A stretch of 37,152 bases of DNA from a virus, in the IMG/VR virus record IMGVR_UViG_3300030328_001766, positions 1-37,152 of that record, one strand, 5' to 3'. The first letter of the stretch is position 1. Each line of letters starts with the position of its first letter. Under the pieces are notes generated by a model. The model was not told the origin of the DNA and searched no databases. It saw only the letters and a list, made by a program, of their open reading frames with translations. This document shows positions 2,969-17,309 of the stretch, in pieces. The translations under genes and the position numbers were made by a program.

Positions 2969-3619
2969 TTATAAATTTGATAAGAAATTGTTAAAGAGAG
3001 ATAATTTCTCTTCATCAAGTTTCTTCTGGGTTACTAATGTATTAATTTGCTTATAAGTTTTTTCAGCAAGTTTTTCACGAAGGATGCCACCATCCCAAAC
3101 CCAATCTTTTCCTTCCATAATTCCTGAGACAAATGCATCAGGAGCAGAAGGGTCAGCTACAATATCAGCAGCGGTTGCAAGCATGAAATCTTCGCCAACT
3201 ACACTATATCCCTCTTTAGTAGGTTTAAGGGATCCAACACCTCTTGACGAAACGCCAAGTTTTACACCTTCATCTAAAAGTGAAGTTGCAATTTTACCCA
3301 TTGGAGTTGCAAGAATTTTCGCTCTCCCAATGAAATTAGAACCGTGCTCTTTTAAAGAGACGATTTTATGTGAAACACGGTCAAGATTAACGGTGGGACC
3401 GTCGGGATGACCAAGTTCTCCCAGTGCTCTACCAGACTGAACATGATTTTCAGTATACCGAGAAACTTCCTTACGAAGAGTTTCCATAGGATACATTCTA
3501 CCATTGCGGTTTTTAATGTTTCCTTGTAGAAAAACCCCTTCAATATAAAGAGATTTTTTACCGTTACGATTTTCAACGATAAATTCTACCTGTTCGATTT
3601 CTTCCGTAATCAGTTTCAT
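2969..3619 (-). CDS. gp21: Prohead core protease gp21
   Basis: This is the serine protease that digests the scaffold and trims gp23 before DNA packaging. The ATG at 3619 gives 216 residues beginning MKLITEEIEQVEF. It overlaps the upstream stop codon as TAATG and has a GAAGG ribosome-binding site 6 bases before it. The frame is open upstream, but the extra residues look like translated shadow of the neighbouring gene. Key family elements are visible: N-R-N-G-R-M-Y-P near residues 38-44, the catalytic His region G-E-L-G-H-P-D-G-P (His71), and the catalytic Ser region L-G-V-S-S-R-G (Ser124 or Ser125). Length matches T4 gp21 (about 212). Translation is probably coupled to the upstream 193-residue gene. 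Confidence 0.95.
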   Translation of the reverse strand: MKLITEEIEQVEFIVENRNGKKSLYIEGVFLQGNIKNRNGRMYPMETLRKEVSRYTENHVQSGRALGELGHPDGPTVNLDRVSHKIVSLKEHGSNFIGRAKILATPMGKIATSLLDEGVKLGVSSRGVGSLKPTKEGYSVVGEDFMLATAADIVADPSAPDAFVSGIMEGKDWVWDGGILREKLAEKTYKQINTLVTQKKLDEEKLSLFNNFLSNL

Positions 3620-4200
3620 TAGCCTTCGCCTGTAATTTGAACTTGATGACAATGTATGTGAGCACCTGCATTAGTACCTGCTTGTATAACTGCTACTCTA
3701 TGAGAAGCAATTGCACGAGCATCAGCAAAATCAACATCTGCTGGGATTATTTTCTCTGAATTTGCAGCAACTGTGCATTGAGTCATAAAACAACCGTCTG
3801 CCCAAGGAGAACCTGCTTTGTTATTAACAGAGATAACACGAACATGTGAAAGATAAGATCCAACACCAGCATAACCATCACCAGTTTCAACTGATATATA
3901 ATTTCCATGACCAAATGGGCATTGCTGTCCTTCTGGGAAAGAAAGTATAGTTTCTGTTGTACCGGTAGTAATTCCCGTTACTCTTTGGGATGCTTTAGTC
4001 ATCCCTAAACTCATAGACGTATTAGCAGCTAGATAAAGACTTTCTCTTGTCGCTGCAGGAGTATTTCCTACTGCCACAAAACAATCGCCACCTACGGCAG
4101 TAATTTTTATAGTGTCTGATTGGACATCAAAATAATCAGTCTGAACTGATGCTGCACCAATTGAAACTGATGTTCCTATACCAACTGATCTAATTGCCAT
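3619..4200 (-). CDS. Unknown head-module protein, 193 aa
   Basis: I do not recognise a T4 counterpart. The 193-residue protein lies between the gp67-like core gene and gp21, where T4 has gene 68, but it does not resemble gp68, which is charged and helical. It is rich in Ala, Gly, Thr and Val with little charge, as expected of a beta-rich structural or decoration protein. It starts MAIRSVGIGTSVSIG, has about four Cys and ends in a His-rich H-I-H-C-H-Q segment. A perfect TATAAATA promoter lies 30 bases upstream, and its stop codon overlaps the gp21 start. A role as a head-surface or head-completion protein is an inference from position and composition only. Confidence 0.8.
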   Translation of the reverse strand: MAIRSVGIGTSVSIGAASVQTDYFDVQSDTIKITAVGGDCFVAVGNTPAATRESLYLAANTSMSLGMTKASQRVTGITTGTTETILSFPEGQQCPFGHGNYISVETGDGYAGVGSYLSHVRVISVNNKAGSPWADGCFMTQCTVAANSEKIIPADVDFADARAIASHRVAVIQAGTNAGAHIHCHQVQITGEG

Positions 4201-9468: not shown

Positions 9469-11115
9469 TTACATATACTCCCACATGTAAGATCTGTCTC
9501 CATATTCGTCCGTAAACCATCTATCGCCGTCTTCATCCACAAAACTATTATCATCTAGACCATCAGACATAAATCCAAATGGTGCCATATCTTGTTCTAT
9601 TTGATTCTTTTGTTCATCATATAATCTTTTTCTTACATCCTGGTCAGTAAGTTCTTTAAAATAATCTTGATTAACTAACCAAGCATATATTACCAAGCAC
9701 ATAGCAAGGTCATCATTACATCCTTCTTCTGCTTCAAATGAATTACTCTTCTGAATAAAAGTAGTTAATTCACTTAATATTTCATAATCATTAAATATTA
9801 ATTTGTCAGACTCAATCATTGTCTTAAGATTAAGAGCACCAACCTTTTTAACAGTCTTAGACATCTTAACTCCCATTTGAGTTTTCTTACCAGAGAATCC
9901 TTGACCAATTACTTGACCTGCTCTTCCTCTCATTGATGCCATCAAAAGATTAGCATATTCAAGATCATAATTCAAAATGGATGCTACTTGATCTCCAACA
10001 TCATTTACTTCACATAAAATAAATGCTTTATTATACTTAGTGGCTATTTCATAGATTATATTGGGGAATAACATTGGTTTAATTTCATTATTCCTATACT
10101 TTCCTACAACCTTATGAGGAAAAGTTGTTATATCAACAACTACAAATGCGGAATAATCTTTAACTACTCCACGCGCAACGTCTACAGTTATGAGATAATC
10201 ATGTTTTGGTTGGGGATCTTCATATACATCTAAACCAGCACTTCTAGTTTTTGGATTCTCATATACTAAAGTTCTTAATTTACTTGGTGCAATAAGAGTA
10301 TCAACAGATCCTAAAAATTCACACTCAAACTCAACTTTAAATTGCTGTTCTGAAGTATTCGCAATAGTTTGTGCTTGCCATTTAGCATCTCTACCAGGAA
10401 CTTCTGACCAATGTACATCTGTAGGAATATATTCATTCTTTCCTCTTTCGGCATCGTGCCAATACCTATAAAAATGATTCATCCCGTGAGGGGTAGAAAC
10501 CATTATGACTTTCGTGTTTTTACCAGAAGTAATAGTAGGATAAACAGAGGCAAAGAAGGACTCCGCAATATGGTTTGGAACGAAGGCAAACTCGTCGAGG
10601 AAGAGAATGTTAAACGACATGCCTCGGACAGCACTTGCAGACGTAGAAGCAGCCAGTATCTTTGATCCATTTTCTAACTCCAGTGAACCTCTATTCCAAG
10701 ACAAGACACCTTGCTGCATCCACTTTGGAACATTCTCATATGCCGTTTGTAAACGACCTAATAATTCCCGTGCAGTTGCTGCCTTGTTTGCAAGTATGCC
10801 AATATTTACACTATCATTAAAAAGTAAGTAATGCAACAGATATGAAATACATGTAGTAGACTTACCTGTCTGACGAGGCATCTTACATATATTAAATCTA
10901 TGATCGTGAAAATTTTTAATTAACTTCTCTTGAAAATCATAAGGTTTAAATGATGTTAAACCTTCATCCAAAGAAACTATCTTAACATGCTGTTTAGCAA
11001 AATAAACTGGATTATTTTTACACCTTACATATTCAATAATTTGCTCTTGATCAAATTCAACAGCAGTATTTGCTTTTTTTAAATTCGGATTACCAAGATA
11101 AATTTCATCAGCCAT
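9469..11115 (-). CDS. gp17: Terminase large subunit gp17
   Basis: The 548-residue packaging motor pumps DNA into the prohead through the portal and cuts the concatemer. The ATPase domain shows a Walker A motif, M-P-R-Q-T-G-K-S-T (residues 79-87, Lys85), Walker B I-L-F-L-D-E (170-175, catalytic Glu175) and the coupling motif S-T-P-H-G (207-211). The RNase H-like nuclease domain keeps its acidic residues: Asp312 in T-V-D-V-A-R-G, Glu369 in C-E-V-N-D-V-G-D and Asp468/Asp469 in G-C-N-D-D-L-A. It is shorter than T4 gp17 (610), which fits cyanophages. An AGGAG site precedes the ATG. Unlike in T4, the partner gp16 is not adjacent but about 5.8 kb upstream. Confidence 0.98.
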   Translation of the reverse strand: MADEIYLGNPNLKKANTAVEFDQEQIIEYVRCKNNPVYFAKQHVKIVSLDEGLTSFKPYDFQEKLIKNFHDHRFNICKMPRQTGKSTTCISYLLHYLLFNDSVNIGILANKAATARELLGRLQTAYENVPKWMQQGVLSWNRGSLELENGSKILAASTSASAVRGMSFNILFLDEFAFVPNHIAESFFASVYPTITSGKNTKVIMVSTPHGMNHFYRYWHDAERGKNEYIPTDVHWSEVPGRDAKWQAQTIANTSEQQFKVEFECEFLGSVDTLIAPSKLRTLVYENPKTRSAGLDVYEDPQPKHDYLITVDVARGVVKDYSAFVVVDITTFPHKVVGKYRNNEIKPMLFPNIIYEIATKYNKAFILCEVNDVGDQVASILNYDLEYANLLMASMRGRAGQVIGQGFSGKKTQMGVKMSKTVKKVGALNLKTMIESDKLIFNDYEILSELTTFIQKSNSFEAEEGCNDDLAMCLVIYAWLVNQDYFKELTDQDVRKRLYDEQKNQIEQDMAPFGFMSDGLDDNSFVDEDGDRWFTDEYGDRSYMWEYM

Positions 11116-11124
11116 AATAATCTC

Positions 11125-11289
11125 CTACATCATTTCACCAAACAGATGTCCTTTTGGCATTTTTCCTAAATTTTTCTCATGATCTAAAGTAAGGTCTAAC
11201 ATTTTTTGTAGGGTGTTTGCTTTCTTCCTTAACGCTTCAATCTCTTTATCTTGCTCCTCCGACTTGGAGGAGGGGTTCTCCTTCGTCAT
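11125..11289 (-). CDS. Small coiled-coil protein before gp17, 54 aa
   Basis: The function is unknown. Starting at the ATG at 11289, the 54-residue protein begins MTKENPSSKSEEQDKEIEAL and is strongly charged, with heptad-like spacing through E-A-L-R-K-K-A-N-T-L-Q-K-M-L-D-L-T-L (a likely coiled coil, about 15-40), ending K-G-H-L-F-G-E-M-M. The start overlaps the C-terminal coding region of the upstream 114-residue gene by 44 bases, and gp17 begins 9 bases after its stop. A GTG further upstream would add 11 residues but looks less likely. It does not contain the gp16 signature, so it is not the small terminase. A gp17-associated role is speculation from adjacency. Confidence 0.6.
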   Translation of the reverse strand: MTKENPSSKSEEQDKEIEALRKKANTLQKMLDLTLDHEKNLGKMPKGHLFGEMM

Positions 11290-11590
11290 GGTCCGATACT
11301 TGGTAGCCCCACAACTTAGCACCTGGATAAACTTTCTGCAACTGATCCTGTACTTCCTTGCGGGATGGTTTAGAGACTTGGGGGAAAAACATTTTAATGC
11401 TATAACTACTTCCCCGCCAAGCCAACATAACAGTTAATATATTACCTGTCTTAGATGGTATTCTGGTGGCTTCCTGAACTCCTCCTTTAATTGGTTCAGG
11501 CTTAATAAGATCTATCACTTCGGCAAAAGTATTGCCATCAGCGTCTTCAAGAGTCAAATCTTCTTTACAGTATTGTCTAAAAGATTTCAT
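11246..11590 (-). CDS. Unknown 114-aa protein with MKSF leader
   Basis: The function is unknown. The protein begins M-K-S-F-R-Q-Y-C-K-E-D, a leader type that resembles the T4 capsid-targeting peptide (MKTYQEFIAEA) in outline, though it lacks a good (L/I)-x-E cleavage site directly after it. The remainder has strand-like segments such as T-V-M-L-A-W-R-G-S-S-Y-S-I-K-M-F-F-P and then a charged helix, K-P-S-R-K-E-V-Q-D-Q-L-Q-K-V-Y-P-G-A, suggesting a small soluble alpha/beta protein. A CTAAATA promoter lies 25 bases before the ATG and overlaps the stop codon of the Ycf35-like gene. The last 44 bases overlap the start of the 54-residue gene. It is part of the cargo between gp16 and gp17. Confidence 0.75.
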   Translation of the reverse strand: MKSFRQYCKEDLTLEDADGNTFAEVIDLIKPEPIKGGVQEATRIPSKTGNILTVMLAWRGSSYSIKMFFPQVSKPSRKEVQDQLQKVYPGAKLWGYQVSDHDEGEPLLQVGGAR

Positions 11591-11614: not shown

Positions 11615-11621
11615 TATTTAG
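11615..11621 (-). promoter_or_regulatory. Late promoter CTAAATA before the 114-aa gene
   Basis: Minus-strand CTAAATA, 25 bases upstream of the ATG at 11590. It contains the TAA stop codon (11618-11620) of the Ycf35-like gene. Confidence 0.58.
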
Positions 11622-12010
11622 GAATTCCAATCAGTTACAGTAATTTCAATACTATTATCATCCATTTCCCATTCTTCTGCTACTGATAATCCCATTTCTT
11701 TAACAGTATTGTGAATAACCATTCTAGCATACTGTTGAGTTACTTTATCAATAAACCTTTCTGGTGGAACAGGATGTTTCCATGTTTCAAGATCTGTAAC
11801 TAATTGATAGGTTTCGGTTTTTGCATTCCACCGAAATCCAATATCAGTTTCAATAGCAACTTCAGCATTAACCGTAGGGTGATCAATACCATGTTCTCCA
11901 GTGACTTTAAGTTCCTGGTCTTCATTTATAGTATGACCCAACAAATTAAGTGCCTGTAATAAAGCAGAACGATCTTTAATCTGTGTTTGTATTGTGCTGA
12001 AATGAGACAT
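11618..12010 (-). CDS. ycf35: Ycf35-like protein (DUF1257)
   Basis: The 130-residue protein begins M-S-H-F-S-T-I-Q-T-Q-I-K-D and continues L-L-Q-A-L-N-L-L-G, the diagnostic opening of the Ycf35/DUF1257 family found in cyanobacteria and in algal plastid genomes. Further family-like parts are the G-F-R-W-N-A-K-T-E-T-Y-Q-L-V-T-D segment (about residues 76-91) and the C-terminal helix F-I-D-K-V-T-Q-Q-Y-A. The biochemical role of Ycf35 is not established to my knowledge. The gene overlaps the upstream DUF2997 gene by 35 bases, so the two are probably translated together. It is not a virion-assembly gene by family, so it is best read as a host-derived auxiliary gene (inference) inserted in the late region. 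Confidence 0.83.
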   Translation of the reverse strand: MSHFSTIQTQIKDRSALLQALNLLGHTINEDQELKVTGEHGIDHPTVNAEVAIETDIGFRWNAKTETYQLVTDLETWKHPVPPERFIDKVTQQYARMVIHNTVKEMGLSVAEEWEMDDNSIEITVTDWNS

Positions 12011-12176
12011 CTTTTACAGTTTGATAGTATTCGGGTTTGTATAATTTATTAGTTATTTTTCCTAACTTATCTTCTATTACTTTAGTAAGTTGTTCACATT
12101 CATTAGAAACTGCTCCTGTAACTTCTTCAGTTACCTGACCATCTTGTCTAATAGAAAATTTAATAGTTTTGGCCAT
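11976..12176 (-). CDS. DUF2997-family small protein
   Basis: The 66-residue protein begins M-A-K-T-I-K-F-S-I-R-Q-D-G-Q-V, then E-E-V-T-G-A-V-S-N-E-C-E-Q-L-T-K-V-I-E-D-K-L-G, and ends with K-P-E-Y-Y. This is the pattern of the DUF2997 family: a short beta hairpin, a conserved G-x-x-x-x-x-C-x-x-L-T, and a helix ending in L-G. Members are known from cyanobacteria, where they can neighbour DUF1257 genes; the same pairing occurs here with a 35-base overlap. The function is unknown. The ATG lies 2 bases after the stop codon of the upstream His-rich gene, so no separate promoter is likely. The single conserved Cys may matter for the activity. Confidence 0.8.
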   Translation of the reverse strand: MAKTIKFSIRQDGQVTEEVTGAVSNECEQLTKVIEDKLGKITNKLYKPEYYQTVKDVSFQHNTNTD

Positions 12177-12178
12177 GA

Positions 12179-12370
12179 TTAGAAATTTTTAGGATGAGTA
12201 GTTACATCACCATGTATCTCATCTATATTGGCATGATCAATGGCATCAATGTGATCCAAATGATCTATATGCTCAATATGACCATGATCAATATTAATAT
12301 GAGCACCACTTTCTAGAACATTAGCAATCCTCTCAAGAGCATCTGCAATTCTGTCTGCTTGTGATTCCAT
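12179..12370 (-). CDS. His-Asp-Ile triplet-repeat protein, 63 aa
   Basis: The function is unknown. The N-terminal 22 residues form an amphipathic helix (A-D-R-I-A-D-A-L-E-R-I-A-N-V-L-E). The rest is a run of tripeptides of the type (D/E)-H-(I/L): histidines fall at residues 31, 34, 37, 40 and 46, exactly three apart with one position replaced by Ala. Nine of 63 residues are His, alternating with Asp or Glu. Such spacing could bind divalent metals or form a narrow triplet-repeat fibre; both are inference. The stop codon is followed after 2 bases by the DUF2997 start. The 36-base upstream gap has no good late promoter. Confidence 0.7.
   Translation of the reverse strand: MESQADRIADALERIANVLESGAHINIDHGHIEHIDHLDHIDAIDHANIDEIHGDVTTHPKNF
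12218..12289 (-). repeat. Tripeptide-repeat tract of the His-rich gene
   Basis: Encodes residues 28-51 of the 63-residue protein. It is a degenerate 9-base periodic tract whose units read (D/E/G)-H-(I/L), with some units altered (D-A-I, D-H-A). Confidence 0.7.
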
Positions 12371-12406: not shown

Positions 12407-12703
12407 TCAACCACCGTTGCCGCCACCATTTCCTCCACCGTTTCCACCACCATTTCCATTACCTCCATTCCCATTTCCATTGCCGTTACCATTCCCATTT
12501 CCATTGCCGTTACCATTAGCAGAATGCGAATGACCAGTTCTTAACCAACCACCAGGACCCATTGTTTTTCCTTTGGGTATAGGCATACACTTCTTTTTAT
12601 CATAACAATAATATTCTCCCTCCGGACATCTTTTAGATGCTGCTTCTTCTATAAAAGAATTAAAGTTTTTCATCTTTTGTTTTTGTTCGTTAGTGTTGTT
12701 CAT
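12407..12703 (-). CDS. Cys-motif and Asn-Gly repeat protein with CTS-like leader
   Basis: The 98-residue protein has three parts. First is a leader whose inner Met11 starts M-K-N-F-N-S-F-I-E-E-A, matching the T4 internal-protein capsid-targeting sequence (MKTYQEFIAEA) at M, K, F, I, E and A, and carrying an I-x-E/A prohead-protease-type site. Next is a small Cys motif, R-C-P-E-G-E-Y-Y-C-Y-D-K-K-K-C, and G-P-G-G-W-L. Last is a roughly 35-residue Asn-Gly repeat to the end. The upstream ATG at 12703 overlaps the previous stop codon as ATGA; the Met11 start at 12673 would put the leader at the true N-terminus. Neither has a strong ribosome-binding site. A packaged, gp21-processed head protein is an inference; a flexible surface tail is the alternative. 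Confidence 0.72.
   Translation of the reverse strand: MNNTNEQKQKMKNFNSFIEEAASKRCPEGEYYCYDKKKCMPIPKGKTMGPGGWLRTGHSHSANGNGNGNGNGNGNGNGNGGNGNGGGNGGGNGGGNGG
12470..12517 (-). repeat. Two exact 24-bp tandem units in the Asn-Gly tract
   Basis: Bases 12470-12493 and 12494-12517 are identical 24-base units coding for four Asn-Gly pairs each. The bases down to 12413 hold further degenerate units (N-G-G, G-G-N), so the tract probably grew by slippage or unequal recombination. Confidence 0.88.
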
Positions 12704-12881: not shown

Positions 12882-13217
12882 TTATGCATTAGCAGTTTCT
12901 AAAACAGAAACAAGAATTTTCAAAACACTATTTGTGCCAGCAGTAGCAGTAATATAATCACTTGTTTCTAAAACCAATTTTCCATCTAAAGGAATATAGG
13001 CATCATTAGCAGGAACACTTGCTGCATTGATAATCTGAGTGGTTGTGCTGGTTCTTACATGTGCCATAGTAATCGTTGCTGCAGCAGAACCAGTATAGTT
13101 AGTTACATGTGCATACAAAATAATTCCCGTATACCCTGTAGGAGCAGTATAAATTGTCTGCGGTGAGGTAGTAAGTTGTTTAGTGTATGTTTTAAATCTA
13201 TTAAGTGCTAATGCCAT
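12882..13217 (-). CDS. Small virion-type protein, 111 aa
   Basis: The 111-residue protein begins MALALNRFKTYTKQLTTS and is nearly all short beta strands (T-I-Y-T-A-P-T-G-Y-T-G-I-I-L-Y-A-H-V-T-N, L-D-G-K-L-V-L-E-T-S-D-Y-I). This is the look of a compact beta-sandwich head or tail accessory protein. I recall similar short proteins next to fibre genes in other cyanophages, but I cannot name a family. Its ATG lies one base after the stop codon of the 1208-residue gene, implying coupled translation and perhaps a shared complex. No catalytic motif is present. Confidence 0.8.
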   Translation of the reverse strand: MALALNRFKTYTKQLTTSPQTIYTAPTGYTGIILYAHVTNYTGSAAATITMAHVRTSTTTQIINAASVPANDAYIPLDGKLVLETSDYITATAGTNSVLKILVSVLETANA

Positions 13218-16886: not shown

Positions 16887-17309
16887 CTATTTAGAAGAAC
16901 TGTTAAGGTCACTTTCCTTTATCATCTTTGCAAGTTCTGCAGTAGATCCTACAAAGAGTGCATTATTAACTGTATTTGGTCCTTTGGGTTTGGATTCTTC
17001 TTCTACATCCTTTAACTTCTTCTGAAGATCCATTAATTTGTCAGTAGCATCAGAAACACTCTTAATCAACTGCCCTGCGACCTCATATGCCCTTGGCATC
17101 TCACTTTCCTGTGCAAGTTCAAGAATACCATTAATTGCTTCCTGACCCTTCTCTATGATGCTATAAAGATTACCTCTTGTATATTCATAATCTTTAGTAA
17201 TATCATCTTGAGTAAGTCGAGAGGGTTTTTGGATTCCCACAGGTGCGGCTTCCTCTACCACAACATCAGTAGGGGTAATATTAAATGCTTTATCTAGTTG
17301 CTTACTCAT
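16887..17309 (-). CDS. gp16: Terminase small subunit gp16
   Basis: The 140-residue protein is the DNA-recognition and regulatory subunit that works with gp17 in headful packaging. The middle (residues 40-102) holds the conserved D-Y-x-x-x-R-x-N pattern followed by two long helices (E-L-A-Q-E-S-E-M-P-R-A-Y-E-V and D-K-L-M-D-L-Q-K-K-L-K-D-V), as in the T4 gp16 oligomerisation core. Near the C-terminus N-A-L-F-V-G-S-T-A-E-L (116-126) matches the T4 gp16 N-A-T-V-F-V-G-S-P-T-E-L element. Length is close to the T4 protein (164). Its ATG overlaps the gp15 stop codon as ATGA. Unusually relative to T4, the large terminase gene does not follow; a nine-gene cargo intervenes. Confidence 0.93.
   Translation of the reverse strand: MSKQLDKAFNITPTDVVVEEAAPVGIQKPSRLTQDDITKDYEYTRGNLYSIIEKGQEAINGILELAQESEMPRAYEVAGQLIKSVSDATDKLMDLQKKLKDVEEESKPKGPNTVNNALFVGSTAELAKMIKESDLNSSSK
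16888..16894 (-). promoter_or_regulatory. Late promoter CTAAATA for the fibre-like gene
   Basis: Minus-strand CTAAATA, 43 bases upstream of the ATG at 16845, built over the last codons and TAG stop of gp16. Confidence 0.6.

Follow-up and report, generated by a model that had tools for sequence, protein, structure and literature searches.

The gene at positions 12407 to 12703 of the window (minus strand, stop codon included) raises the question of whether a small cyanophage protein can be addressed to the inside of the phage head by a short leader, as known from the internal proteins of phage T4. The window is the whole stretch of 37,152 nucleotides analyzed here. The 98-aa product combines a leader of the T4 capsid targeting type with a three-Cys module and an Asn-Gly tail. 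The product rather probably belongs to the cargo of a T4-like cyanophage head and would be targeted by its leader, cut by the prohead protease gp21, kept in the head, and probably released with the DNA, with targeting, cleavage, injection, and function all read from comparison with related systems.

A tblastn search with the proteins of phage S-SCSM1 identified the 37-kb record as a fragment of a T4-like cyanophage with the gene order gp23, gp22, gp21, gp20, gp19, gp18, gp17, gp16, gp15, gp14, gp13, and gp8. The 98-aa gene is located between gp17 (large terminase, 9469 to 11115) and gp16 (small terminase, 16887 to 17309), which are the downstream and upstream borders of the insert region, respectively. 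Both are on the minus strand, as are the genes for the major capsid precursor gp23 (321 to 1748) and the scaffold protein gp22 (1796 to 2917), the presumed core partner of the leader. The earlier note had placed a gp21 gene in the same window, and it was found at 2969 to 3652 on the minus strand, with a probable start at 3619, a match to Peptidase_S77 (2.7e-36), 73% identity to gp21 of S-SCSM1, and the stretches GELxHP and GVSSRG in common with T4 gp21. A second leader-like gene at 11246 to 11590 (minus strand) encodes a protein starting with MKSFRQYCKED and containing an RIPSKTGN/MFFPQ module. It is similar to S-SCSM1 ORF30, with the leader MKTFKQFMSES, and to the virion protein ORF29.

The translation of the 98-aa gene reads MNNTNEQKQK-MKNFNSFIEEA-ASKRCPEGEYYCYDKKKCMPIPKGKTMGPGGWLRTGHSHSA-(NG)n. 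The leader MKNFNSFIEEA comprises residues 11 to 21 (12641 to 12673, minus strand), and gp21 is predicted to cut it after Glu20, at the junction of bases 12644 and 12643. It is followed by the three-Cys module CPEGEYYCYDKKKCMPIPKG with the spacing C-x6-C-x5-C (12569 to 12628, minus strand) and by an Asn-Gly/Gly-rich C-terminal tract of residues 63 to 98 (12410 to 12517, minus strand), which recurs after the Cys module in relatives. The predicted mature peptide A21-G98 would have 78 residues and be weakly basic, with 8 K+R versus 3 D+E. A Pfam search with the window protein gave no match, and the matches in PHROGs were to families of unknown function only. An AlphaFold model of the leader plus module, based on 36 sequences, had a mean pLDDT of 67 and a pTM of 0.39 and was too weak for a fold search; it placed a short helix across the leader and small strands in the module.

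The position of the leader depends on the start codon. Use of the first ATG of the longest open reading frame adds ten residues, MNNTNEQKQK (12674 to 12703, minus strand), ahead of the leader. This extension is without counterpart in the close relatives L003 to L005, in which the open reading frame begins directly at MKNF and the leader is N-terminal, and the start codon of the window gene is uncertain. Its first ATG overlaps the stop codon of the upstream gene (ATGA), which suggests translational coupling, and no Shine-Dalgarno sequence was evident at Met11. The choice of the start codon may place ten residues before the leader, which counts against the head-cargo reading because the leader would then be internal, and those tested in T4 were N-terminal. 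Leader-like stretches at an offset occur elsewhere: in the virion protein ORF12 of S-CREM2, RFASFMAEA lies some 17 residues into the sequence, and P-TIM68 has MKNFTSFMEA within a long open reading frame, directly ahead of a Cys module. A leader at some distance from the N terminus may therefore be tolerated.

From Met11, the sequence MKNFNSFIEEA reads as the earlier note had stated. Compared with MKTYQEFIAEA of T4, residues M1, K2, F7, I8, E10, and A11 are identical, position 4 is Phe instead of Tyr, and an intact gp21 site, I-E-E/A, is formed by residues 8 to 11. The attribution of MKTYQEFIAEA to all of IPI to IPIII was exact for IPII and IPIII but not for IPI, which starts with MKTFKEFTSTTTPVSTITEA, that is, with MKTFKEF and with the I-T-E/A site located further on. 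In genetic experiments with T4 IPIII, residues 4 and 7 were important for targeting and residues 8 and 10 for processing, and an Asp residue at position 10 blocked the cut (PMC9026906). All residues critical in IPIII, the aromatic residue 4, Phe7, Ile8, and Glu10, are present in the window leader.

A scan with leader and module together as the query, which is biased toward leaders, yielded 79 distinct module sequences, 59 of which had a leader directly in front. Across 63 leader-plus-module sequences, F7, E10, K2, and the three Cys residues were invariant while synonymous codons varied, and positions 4 and 8 were conservative. The pN/pS ratio was 0.07 at positions 4, 7, 8, 10, and 11 compared to 0.58 at positions 3, 5, 6, and 9, a contrast that is inflated and partly conditioned because the 63 sequences had been selected with the motif. 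As judged from this comparison, the leader positions critical in T4 are under strong purifying selection. The gp23 proteins of these phages possess [LI]-x-E/[ATI] at the processing place of T4 gp23: SFLTE/A in T4, SFLAE/A in S-SCSM1, and SLME/T in the window, where L-M-E/T stands at the place of F-L-T-E/A of T4. The retention of this motif at the T4 site indicates that the preference of the gp21-type protease seems to be shared between T4 and these phages.

The frequency of the leader was evaluated with the strict pattern M[KR]x[FYW]xx[FYW][ILVMCFA]xE at the first start of an open reading frame, using the window plus eleven marine genomes (ten cyanophages and HTVC008M) with 2497 open reading frames of at least 60 aa. 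The pattern opened 11 of them, compared to a mean of 0.09 and a maximum of 2 in 300 shuffles of the N-terminal residues; none was in S-PM2 or HTVC008M. In IMG/VR, a degenerate DNA pattern for the leader matched at least 120 stretches, compared to 9 for a control pattern in which equally many fixed bases stood in permuted order, and 77 of 81 among the matches listed started an open reading frame of at least 60 aa. The leader occurs beyond chance. Looser motifs gave no enrichment in S-SCSM1, so that the strict motif alone was relied upon. The motif F..F[ILMVF].E had been picked after S-CREM2 had been seen. Two regex matches look like false positives, MKYFHIYINER in P-HM2 (171354 to 171530) and an internal Met of an S-SSM7 epimerase. 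In T4, the strict pattern matched only IPII, IPIII, and gp61.1; gene 61.1 (L090, 18966 to 19130, minus strand) encodes a 54-aa protein annotated as hypothetical that starts with the leader-like MKTFKEFIKED.

Published virion proteomes were compared for three related phages with strict-leader genes, S-CREM2, S-SCSM1, and S-SM1, and five of the six products were present in purified virions. All three leader genes found in the genome of S-CREM2 encode proteins of CsCl-purified virions (PMC10665884, Table 3): the SAM hydrolase ORF6 (MKDFDSFLEEF), the APH-like kinase ORF14 with a GTG start (MKRFDAFLTEE), and the cytidylyltransferase ORF154 (MKNFSSFLTEA). One of two was found in S-SCSM1, the NMNAT ORF91 (MKSFLQFLKEA), while ORF30 remained undetected in the virion proteome (PMC9602691; GenBank flags, of which 48 were counted compared to 45 in the paper). 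The sole strict-leader gene of S-SM1, T4-GC190 (MKKFSAFLNEA), also encodes a virion protein (PMC3037559). The association of leader and virion presence had a Fisher p of 0.0055 in S-CREM2 and S-SCSM1, the two genomes with coordinates, whereby virion lists can include copurified proteins. The authors of the S-CREM2 and S-SCSM1 studies suggested that the particle may carry these enzymes with it (PMC10665884, PMC9602691), and the passages on this contained no mention of a leader. No description of capsid targeting in cyanophages was found in the open-licence PMC literature, and a prior report elsewhere is possible. The published virion proteomes largely support the interpretation as head cargo, and no earlier link to the leader was found in them. 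Two other S-CREM2 virion proteins have N termini that may be related. ORF12 (L416, 7704 to 10313, minus strand) is a Cas9-like nuclease, the N-terminal LRFASFMAEA of which resembles an offset capsid targeting leader, and ORF15 (L416, 12843 to 13331, minus strand) starts with MNFSEFNES, contains CPEGYKWNKKLGKCEP, and is a possible relative of the Cys-module proteins with a divergent leader.

The earlier note had suggested a survey of the leader and its genomic location. Leader genes were found here at a few loci. These are beside gp41-gp61 (the NMNAT group), at gp16-gp17, at gp23-gp3, and near UvsW. Where both borders were seen, 35 genes with leader and Cys module were located between gp23 and gp3 and 8 between gp16 and gp17. 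Among 48 leader proteins, Pfam identified cytidylyltransferase-like proteins (10), DUF6267 (3), DUF5661 (3), P-loop kinase-like proteins (2), and, with single members, GNAT, double-psi-barrel, WYL_2, and DUF6321; PHROGs added polynucleotide kinase and 5'-3' deoxyribonucleotidase. The leader being common on clearly cytoplasmic enzymes had been named as an argument against packaging into the head. It is indeed common on enzymes, but those with virion data are in the virion. Two adjacent leader genes were seen in L156 (3736 to 4532), one of them encoding a GNAT acetyltransferase (1.2e-7); the other product contains a stretch YHGT...ADKIKKSGF that recalls ADP-ribosyltransferases and had no match in Pfam.

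Other fates of the window protein need to be considered. Its upstream neighbors are homologues of S-SCSM1 ORF26, the long tail fibre, and of ORF27 (12882 to 13217, minus strand; mass spectrometry for ORF27), both virion proteins, and the leader is absent from many Cys-module proteins. This would agree with an accessory protein of the tail fibre or the virion surface and a mere resemblance of its leader to a capsid targeting sequence. Such a role is improbable, because selection falls on those leader residues that are essential in T4, because genes with leader and module are mostly located between gp23 and gp3, away from the fibre genes, and because soluble enzymes in virions, which are not fibre parts, bear the same leader. 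The observation that many enzyme-like proteins also begin with the leader could alternatively mean that it is an amphipathic helix of a type common at N termini and serves a different purpose, such as a membrane or complex-assembly signal unrelated to the head. The rarity of the order-permuted control pattern and the five of six strict-leader genes with products in virions make this highly improbable.

A more closely related alternative accepts the binding of the leader to core or scaffold but leaves it uncut, or assumes that the protein serves assembly alone and, like most of T4 gp22, is broken down by the time DNA is packaged. The I-x-E/A site is retained in nearly all relatives and agrees with the gp23 site, and E10 is invariant here while Asp at this position stops cutting in T4, which argues for a leader that is cut. 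The Cys-module homologue ORF29 and the leader enzymes persist into virions, in contrast to a degraded assembly aid. The small size of the protein, its position beside head genes, and the lack of ORF30 in S-SCSM1 virions would fit this alternative, which we nevertheless consider unlikely.

The interpretation of the earlier note, that the protein may be packed inside the head and injected with the DNA, is partly supported. Head targeting and the gp21 site are well supported by conservation, gene position, the gp23 site, and the detection of other leader proteins in virions; for the window protein itself, packaging is deduced from these relatives. By analogy to T4, the leader would act as a capsid targeting sequence through which the protein binds to the core of the prohead, gp21 would cut at the predicted site after I-E-E, and the mature peptide would stay in the head with the DNA, as relatives suggest, and probably exit with it at infection. 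The Cys/Asn-Gly peptide would most likely be a small internal peptide that associates with DNA or acts on the host, a suggestion made with low confidence.

In leader length and layout, in the aromatic residues 4 and 7, Ile8, Glu10, and Ala11, in the presence of gp21 in the genome, and in a small, weakly basic mature protein, the window protein resembles IPI, IPII, and IPIII with their capsid targeting sequence. It differs by its unrelated mature part of three-Cys module and Asn-Gly tail, by the possible ten-residue extension, and by the gene position between gp16 and gp17 instead of the T4 ip/e region. The protein would resemble an internal protein in its working, and homology to the T4 internal protein families was not supported by Pfam or PHROGs. 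Propeptides of the jumbo phages phiKZ and SPN3US are longer. Their inner-body or ejection proteins are likewise head cargo cut after Glu by a prohead protease (PMC9026906), a likeness by description and not by sequence. The T4-GC190 NMNAT/cytidylyltransferases share the leader, for instance in the forms MKKFSAFLxEA and MKSFLQFLKEA, such cytidylyltransferase-like proteins being virion-detected in S-SM1, S-SCSM1, and S-CREM2, and differ as enzymes of 280 to 460 aa unrelated to the Cys module.

The Cys module connects the window protein to the modular T4-GC119 proteins (S-SCSM1 ORF29, P-HM2, P-SSM4, S-SSM7, SynMITS9220M01, and P-TIM68), several of which are encoded in the same gp16-gp17 region. 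It fits their C-x2-G-x-Y-x-C-x5-C-x2-IP-x-G module, which is usually followed by an Asn-Gly tract as in the window. In contrast to the window protein, which has one module and a leader of its own, most long forms start without a strict leader and combine, in varying order, the Cys module with LHKWF, DUF6321, CWxGYEKKG, RIPxKTGN, PRIPRKxGQ, and ACYxKVK modules. Upstream of seven module types, [LIVMF]-x-E was present in 86% of 101 clustered 12-mers compared to 19% at random places of the same proteins, and for residues other than Glu at the third position, enrichment did not exceed 2.5-fold. Modules of one family are related by descent, so that the cleanest support comes from the seven unrelated module types, most of which strongly show the motif. 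A gp21-type site ahead of most modules suggests that T4-GC119 proteins may be a head polyprotein, from which cleavage in the prohead would release the modules. In L167, a whole leader is present at a module boundary, MKTYQEFISEAKK/CWPGYKKKG, as with the Cys module. A first scan for Cys modules was biased by a query containing the leader; the later module-only scan placed most Cys modules in long proteins that lack a leader, and half of these modules stood at the protein start. The flagged virion protein ORF29 holds the Cys module of the window protein and the module of 11246 to 11590, and its detection was tempered by this result as proof of head targeting, because it does not prove a site inside the head. 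Targeting of the long forms would need another explanation.

The main idea of the earlier note was probably right and wider than thought. The window protein would represent, with its one module, a larger leader system of cyanophages. This system would comprise the T4-GC190 NMNAT/cytidylyltransferases, SAM hydrolase, kinases, and small basic proteins, together with the long modular T4-GC119 proteins. The chances seem evenly balanced that one transferable leader loads such diverse proteins into the heads of marine T4-like phages, NMNAT, SAM hydrolase, kinases, a Cas9-like nuclease with an offset leader, acetyltransferase, nucleotidase, and small basic peptides, and that a modular polyprotein is cut by gp21 into separate peptides in the prohead, all of this cargo being delivered to the host cell with the DNA. 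A readable targeting tag would allow prediction from the sequence of proteins carried in at the first moment of infection by phages that are among the most abundant in the ocean. Many of the proteins in cyanophage virions have no known role, and the presence of some enzymes was ascribed to possible encapsidation or carry-over; the leader could account for the NAD and SAM enzymes of these particles. The old T4 idea of the capsid targeting sequence as a general loading device becomes a testable statement for marine phages.

The region between gp16 and gp17 of the window harbors further small genes on the minus strand. Overlapping genes at 11618 to 12010 and 11976 to 12176 encode a DUF1257 (Ycf35-like, 1.8e-21) and a DUF2997 protein (1.5e-15), and in the relative L004, the DUF1257 protein is reduced to a short piece of its C terminus. 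The gene at 12179 to 12370 encodes a 63-aa protein with His/Asp repeats, HIEHIDHLDHIDAIDHANID, which matches only a PHROG of unknown function and is possibly metal-binding.
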